Part shown: one piece after another, positions 10,294-11,443 of the stretch | Layout of the letters: every line of letters begins with the position of its first letter | Numbering within the stretch: position 1 is the stretch's first letter | Assembly (NCBI GenBank): GCA_903899015.1 | Contig: CAIUHP010000075.1 | Span: 1 to 64,000, forward strand | Length of the DNA: 64,000 bases | DNA from: an uncultured Armatimonadota bacterium | Lineage (GTDB): Bacteria; Armatimonadota; Fimbriimonadia; Fimbriimonadales; Fimbriimonadaceae | Direction: 5' to 3' | Made by a program: the position numbers and the translations under genes | Notes under the pieces: generated by a model | The model's input: only the letters and a program-made list of their open reading frames with translations | The model's database searches: none | What the model was told of the DNA's origin: nothing

Positions 10294-10338
10294 GATATGT
10301 CGATAAAAAAGGATTTTATCGACATATCACCCTATAAT
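10294..10338 (+). promoter_or_regulatory. Fic gene promoter with perfect 15-bp inverted repeat
   Basis: GATATGTCGATAAAA (10294-10308) and its exact complement TTTTATCGACATATC (10314-10328) are separated by 5 bases. A consensus -10 box TATAAT follows at 10333-10338, and no good -35 box is visible. The repeat lies where a repressor or activator would act. The predicted transcription start (about 10345) falls on the Fic start codon. Confidence 0.7.
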
Positions 10339-10345
10339 ATCGTTA

Positions 10346-11443
10346 TTGGCGACACATCTACCGTTCAATAGACCCGACCAACCCTACAACGATTTGCCCT
10401 TGTTGCCTCCAACTGTGGAAATTGAGAGCAAGGCAGTTTTGAAGGCTGCCATTGAAGCTCACATCGCCCTAGCCCAACTGAGGGGAGTGGCCAAAGCCAT
10501 TCCTAATGACAGCATCCTCATTCGAGCAATAGCCCTCCAGGAAGCCAGAACATCATCTGAGATCGAGATGATTGTCACCACAAACGATGAGCTTTATCGG
10601 GCACTGAGCCAAAATGAGTTCTCCATCGATCCTCAAACCAAAGAAGTTCTTCGTTACGCGGATGCGGTGTGGCTAGGTTATGGACATTTGCAGAAGGGCA
10701 AATTGTTGGATGTGCCCTTTTTCGAGGGGTTGGCTTCAACCATTCTTCAGCGTCCTATCTCCGTTCGAAAAGGACTTGGAACTCGAATTGGAGACGTTCG
10801 GACGGGAAAAACCGTCTACACGCCACCGGTCGGAGAGGCTTTGATACGCCGCCAGTTAGAGAATCTGTGTGCATTCTGGGAGAACAACCGCGAAGTCGAT
10901 CCACTTGTTCGACTTTGCATGGGGCATTATCAATTCGAAGCGATTCACCCATTTAGTGACTCAAACGGACGTGTTGGCCGTGTTCTAAACATCCTCTTTC
11001 TCGTTCACCAGAAGCTGTTGGACTCGCCCATCCTGTACCTTAGCAGAGCTATCATTGAAGATAAACCCGCATATTATCGTGGACTGAGACAGGTCACCGA
11101 GGAAGGGCGATGGGAGGATTGGGTACTCATGATGCTCGGCAGCATCACGTCGACAGCGATCGAGACCCGAAGACGGATTGAGACGATCCAGAGAGAACTT
11201 GACCTGGCCATAAACCATGCGAAATTAAATATGAGTCGCGGTTATAGCATGGAACTTATTCGCACCATTTATAGCCAGCCATACACTAGGATCATCTTCC
11301 TTGAGAAGGCCAACATCGCAAAAAGGCAAGCTGCTTCCGAATATCTTCAGGAGCTCGAGCGGATCGGACTCCTTCGAGGTGTGAAGAGGGGGCGAGAAAT
11401 GTATTACGTTAACGACCGGCTACTCGAAATTCTGACCATTTAG
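10346..11443 (+). CDS. Fic/DOC family AMP-transferase with C-terminal winged helix
   Basis: Fic proteins transfer AMP or a related group to hydroxyl side chains of target proteins. The active-site loop is HPFSDSNGRVGR with His201; the usual Gly before Asn is Ser here. The N-terminal inhibitory helix motif is 'TSSEIEMI' with the blocking glutamate at E74, marking a class II (self-inhibited) Fic; the residue after it is Met instead of the usual Gly or Asn. The C-terminal 100 residues ('YTRIIFLEKANIAKRQAASEYLQEL') form a winged-helix DNA-binding domain. The only suitable start is TTG at 10346, lying right at the predicted transcription start, so the message may be leaderless. The upstream perfect inverted repeat suggests autoregulation. 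No antitoxin-like partner gene adjoins it. Confidence 0.9.
   Translation: MATHLPFNRPDQPYNDLPLLPPTVEIESKAVLKAAIEAHIALAQLRGVAKAIPNDSILIRAIALQEARTSSEIEMIVTTNDELYRALSQNEFSIDPQTKEVLRYADAVWLGYGHLQKGKLLDVPFFEGLASTILQRPISVRKGLGTRIGDVRTGKTVYTPPVGEALIRRQLENLCAFWENNREVDPLVRLCMGHYQFEAIHPFSDSNGRVGRVLNILFLVHQKLLDSPILYLSRAIIEDKPAYYRGLRQVTEEGRWEDWVLMMLGSITSTAIETRRRIETIQRELDLAINHAKLNMSRGYSMELIRTIYSQPYTRIIFLEKANIAKRQAASEYLQELERIGLLRGVKRGREMYYVNDRLLEILTI

Follow-up and report, generated by a model that had tools for sequence, protein, structure and literature searches.

A SoFic-type Fic protein and the operator family that it very probably recognizes in front of its own gene

A fic gene that is closely preceded by a perfect inverted repeat, and whose product carries a winged helix, raises the question of whether the protein binds this repeat and thereby controls its own synthesis. 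SoFic is a single-gene anti-phage system, and the gene considered here encodes a protein of the SoFic type. An earlier note had placed the repeat, a TATAAT hexamer and a TTG-started open reading frame in the window (the whole 64-kb stretch of DNA that was analysed), and all of these coordinates proved correct on re-checking. The control region and the gene consist of the following elements.

10294..10328, no strand: perfect 15-bp inverted repeat, candidate main operator (0-mismatch match to the family pattern)
10295..10304, + strand: operator half-site 1, ATATGTCGAT (identical 10-mer upstream of homologues)
10318..10327, - strand: operator half-site 2, ATATGTCGAT (its recognition centre and that of half-site 1 are 20 bp apart)
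10333..10338, + strand: TATAAT, resembling a -10 hexamer, 5 nt past half-site 2
10346..11443, + strand: fic gene, SoFic-type protein adenylyltransferase, 365 aa, TTG start (Pfam PF13784/PF02661/PF21248)
10348..10357, - strand: putative third half-site, ATGTGTCGCC, weaker, at a distance of 30 bp from half-site 2 and sharing one base with the start codon

The arms of the repeat (10294-10308, GATATGTCGATAAAA, and 10314-10328, TTTTATCGACATATC) are 100% complementary and are separated by the spacer AAGGA; among the perfect inverted repeats listed for the 64-kb window, at a distance of up to 30 bp, this one is the longest. It is very unlikely that a perfect 15-bp repeat with a 5-bp spacer would arise in 64 kb by chance, and in the 4.94-Mb genome the paired core was found, with up to three mismatches allowed, at a single site, namely the operator of the window. 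Judged from the letters, this operator probably reaches the weaker third half-site right at the beginning of the coding region; 30-bp same-strand steps were also found repeatedly in the arrays of relatives. The TTG start stands 7 nt past TATAAT. A -35-like hexamer upstream of the gene and a terminator-like site at the repeat were both looked for and not found.

The features of the encoded protein that are relevant here are the following.

10553..10570, + strand: SSEIEM (residues 70-75), N-terminal inhibitory motif of a probable class II Fic enzyme, with an unusual Met75 (comparison with relatives)
10946..10972, + strand: Fic catalytic loop HPFSDSNGR, residues 201-209, with an unusual Ser206 (comparison with relatives)
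11249..11410, + strand: C-terminal winged helix, residues 302-355 (PF21248; AlphaFold secondary structure)
11318..11362, + strand: recognition helix region, A325-K-R-Q328-A-A-S331 to residue 339 (helix 327-339 in the model; co-variation of columns 325, 328 and 331)

The Pfam domains Fic_N, Fic and SoFic-like_C were detected with 84.1, 49.4 and 79.6 bits, all above their cut-offs (26.7, 24 and 27). NCBIfam NF046030 matched over nearly the full length with 407.4 bits, under its equivalog cut-off of 550 bits; on this criterion the protein does not count as an equivalog and is better described as a diverged relative of the SoFic type. Its AlphaFold model (34 sequences, mean pLDDT 89.6) could be superposed on SoFic 3zcn with a TM of 0.94 and an rmsd of 1.6, so that the fold is shared; the C-terminal winged helix, which the earlier note had read from the sequence, is both matched by PF21248 and predicted in this model. 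The same note had called the Met of the inhibitory motif and the Ser of the Fic loop unusual, and the comparison of 197 relatives bears this out. From the motif (S/T)xxxE(G/N) the protein retains S70 and E74 and has Met, not Gly or Asn, at residue 75; Met75 occurs in only one further protein, that of the nearest relative, L012 (69% identical), while Asn stands there in 187. Every position of the loop HxFx(D/E)(A/G)N(G/K)R fits except Ser206, which is unique among the 197, Gly being present in 195.

If the repeat belongs to the gene, it should recur with it, and the earlier note had named its absence upstream of close homologues as a finding that would speak against binding; this was checked, and the repeat is present across relatives and phyla. 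In the taxonomic family of the window the gene was found in 11 of 85 genomes (the window's own counted), and by inspection all 11 upstream regions carry half-sites that read ATATG(T/C)CGA(T/A) or differ little from it. A GTDB-wide scan (one genome per species, 257 Gb) for the pattern ATATGTCGAT-N12..15-ATCGACATAT matched 77 contigs, against about one expected by a simple 4^20 count, and the spacer was exactly 13 in 71 of the 80 pattern matches. The match lies at, or at most 400 bp upstream of, a SoFic-like gene on 44 contigs and runs into such a gene at the edge of the locus on two more (46/77); of the others some are too close to an edge to be judged and the remainder are orphans. Roughly one third of the 77 contigs lack a SoFic gene at this place. 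At least one orphan, L091, adjoins a fragment resembling the C-terminus of SoFic. Among phage records there was one good match, which is unannotated, and a peptide-pattern search of viral contigs found no relative. Exact operator pairs that are not followed by a SoFic gene were also seen at L098 4422-4454 (before a large open reading frame), at L025 3378-3410 (before a trmFO-like gene) and at L028 2399-2431 (between a fic gene and a small open reading frame); these could be remnants or members of a wider regulon.

Homologues were also gathered regardless of the motif, from Armatimonadota, Bacteroidota, Gamma- and Alphaproteobacteria, the groups of G294, G295 and G296, and plasmids. Half-sites were called by an RTG anchor and pair geometry, two half-sites having to agree in at least nine of ten bases, or in eight when an array was present. 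Paired half-sites were obtained in 71 of 163 upstream regions, compared with 0.17% of shuffles; the other 92 gave no call at this strict threshold. Beyond the chosen pair there were 1.9 half-sites per locus (shuffles, all half-sites included: 0.2), and 106 of the 129 half-sites that were not used for calling are spaced from the pair by multiples of 10 (+0/1) bp, where 20% was expected. Neighbouring half-sites are 20-21 bp apart, measured at base 7, whether they are convergent or divergent, and therefore all of them share one face of the helix.

The arrays of some relatives extend well over 150 bp. In front of the fic gene of E. coli D7 (L312) about 10 half-sites are arranged in 70-bp repeats, the last overlapping the start codon; this gene was retrieved with a Salmonella plasmid gene as query and was not found with a Dyella query. 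A Salmonella plasmid gene has a similar array. A related gene is present in 278 of 5426 complete E. coli genomes. At L312 1270-1443 the half-sites alternate between two flavours, ATATGTCGAT and ATATGTTTAT, and 70-bp steps were seen in L022 and L053 as well. In L020 the array upstream of fic recurs just past the fic stop codon, seemingly unchanged in the part that was inspected.

The proteins split into two classes, with an AKRQ-like and an SRLT-like helix, and since this split dominated a ranking over the whole dataset, the ranking was redone within the classes, each protein column being scored for its information on operator bases 6-10. The top two columns were 325 and 328 in class I (of 268) and 328 and 331 in class II (of 249), and all three lie on the predicted recognition helix 327-339 or its first turn. 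Q328 pairs with GTCGAT and D328 with GCCGAT (GCG in L203). When the winged helix is left out of the tree, the D/Q difference at 328 requires three independent changes, and base 6 switched too in all three, D328 going with C. In class II, Leu or Ile at 328 goes mostly with GTATAG, Pro mostly with GTAAAG and Gln with GTTAA, and L310, which combines a class I Fic domain with the helix VSRQTAS, has the operator ATGTTAG, like that of the class II VSRQ/ISRQ proteins (ATGTTAA). The other independent pairs were concordant or neutral and none was discordant, with few pairs per test, chosen after inspection, and none below 0.05 singly. Exceptions to the code are L271 (P328 with the Leu-type base 8), L258 (Leu with the Pro-type base) and L255 (AKRQTAS with GTTTA).

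The repeat thus recurs across phyla and the residues of the recognition helix co-vary with the operator bases, and because of these two observations the best explanation is that the SoFic-type Fic protein itself very probably binds the repeat before its own gene. Against this explanation count the 92 upstream regions that gave no call, the exceptions to the code, the small number of independent pairs and the pattern contigs that lack a SoFic gene. The suggestion of the earlier note that the protein's own winged helix binds the site has in this way gained strong support from sequence comparison; its further suggestion, that the gene may be switched in response to AMPylation state, is a conjecture to which these comparisons lend no support. 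As in the autoregulating Fic-HTH protein CccR, an inverted repeat stands in the protein's own promoter; here it co-varies with the recognition helix across relatives.

Where the message begins is less firmly placed: the transcription start of the window's fic is a guess from the -10 alone, because a -35 was not found. In most Armatimonad relatives a half-site is followed by 5-6 nt, a -10-like hexamer, 4-11 nt and the start codon, and L012 has GTG where the window's fic has TTG; owing to this spacing and this GTG, the leader is likely to be very short or absent in the Armatimonad group. The leaderless TTG start proposed earlier is plausible on this ground and is made less secure by the lack of a -35. 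A -10 hexamer following the last half-site is kept in the Armatimonad relatives and is not conserved across class I overall (9/70), and many other class I genes have their ATG start within the last half-site.

As to the consequence of binding, two winged helices, presumably of one dimer, would occupy the two ATATGTCGAT half-sites on opposite strands, the centres of which are 20 bp, that is two helical turns, apart. The predicted sites span the -35 region as well as the -35/-10 spacer and extend in the direction of the start codon, and for this reason, together with the precedent of CccR, we infer that the Fic protein most likely acts as a repressor of its own gene. Once bound, the protein would obstruct RNA polymerase and hold down the amount of a potentially toxic AMPylase; repression might be relieved by loss of the protein, by a change of the dimer or enzyme state, or by infection. 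A reason for such tight self-repression can be seen in the toxicity of wild-type EcSofic, the cloning of which needs tight repression (PMC12249575). Taken as a whole, we consider it highly likely that the gene encodes a class II SoFic-type adenylyltransferase which binds DNA sequence-specifically and represses itself.

A further step, put forward tentatively and rather doubtful at present, is that SoFic-family AMPylases might form regular dimer rows on one face of operator arrays, the DNA-held enzyme being inactive, and that loss of the array on infection might free the enzyme and open the gene. This proposal covers half-site centres every 10-30 bp, of which there are about 10 in E. coli, and couples promoter occupancy to the enzyme state.

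It is unlikely, though less so than the other alternatives, that the protein binds and activates, or mainly sets its own enzymatic state on the DNA, without being a repressor. DNA binding alters the activity of CbFic2 (PMC10628234), the promoter in the window lacks a -35 as activator-dependent promoters may, and the longest arrays mentioned above would suit this reading, but the sites extend over the promoter and in many cases over the start codon as well, which suits repression, and CccR is a repressor (PMC9755527). It is very improbable that a separate transcription factor takes the place of the Fic protein at the repeat and in the control of fic: orphan sites do occur in genomes where no SoFic gene was detected (e.g. 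G292, G299 and G301), but the operator bases track residues of Fic's own recognition helix and the neighbour genes vary from locus to locus. Finally, a structure-forming RNA such as a hairpin or terminator, a recombination site or a chance palindrome was rejected as practically negligible for the 10294-10328 repeat, which as a perfect palindrome is able to fold, but which lies upstream of the -10 with no terminator-like site found, has its half-sites convergent and divergent at multiples of 10 bp, and occurs in association with SoFic genes.

Returning to self-repression by the Fic protein, autoregulation by a Fic-HTH protein is already known from CccR of Yersinia pseudotuberculosis, a Fic enzyme with a C-terminal DNA-binding domain, like the window's protein, which is an autorepressor and binds to an inverted repeat within its promoter (PMC9755527). 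CccR is a distant homologue and its operator, AGATAATCAT-N26-ATGATAATCT, differs from that of the window in sequence and spacing; read outwards, its half-site ATGATAATCT also begins with ATG. For the CccR dimer a distance of 70.2 A between the recognition helices is reported (PMC9755527), about 20-21 bp of B-DNA, like the half-site spacing described here, which is suggestive as a match and not as a test. CbFic2 of Coxiella burnetii, also a distant homologue, is a class II Fic protein with a winged helix, which binds DNA and is altered in activity by it; no specific site is known for it, and it bound random DNA tightly (PMC10628234), which counts against a reading of site-specific binding. Unrelated perfect or near-perfect inverted repeats of similar geometry were seen upstream of more distant Fic-HTH genes (L205, L210, L215, L250, L251, L298, L299 and L303), and for this reason self-operators may be general in Fic-HTH proteins. 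The window's own genome (L010, contig C111) has a second Fic-domain gene after a small helix-turn-helix gene, which resembles the mobile mystery protein A/B pair.

The closest known system is SoFic/EcSofic (Shewanella oneidensis SO_4266, PDB 3eqx and 3zcn; EcSofic of E. coli H397; NF046030, PF21248), with which the window's protein shares the fold (TM 0.94 to 3zcn) and the order Fic_N, Fic, winged helix, and from which it differs by Met75, Ser206 and an NF046030 score of 407 against the cut-off of 550. DNA binding by SoFic was described in 2023 as not demonstrated (PMC10628234); no DNA target for SoFic was reported in the literature searched, nor were a SoFic operator, its arrays or a residue-to-base code found there, subscription papers and preprints lying outside that search. 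The code proposed here can be tested by swaps, and the operator offers a handle on how cells restrain a toxic AMPylase. The E. coli fic gene of the SoFic type carries the same half-site as the window, and an operator that is family-wide and stands before this gene as well would give SoFic a concrete DNA target.
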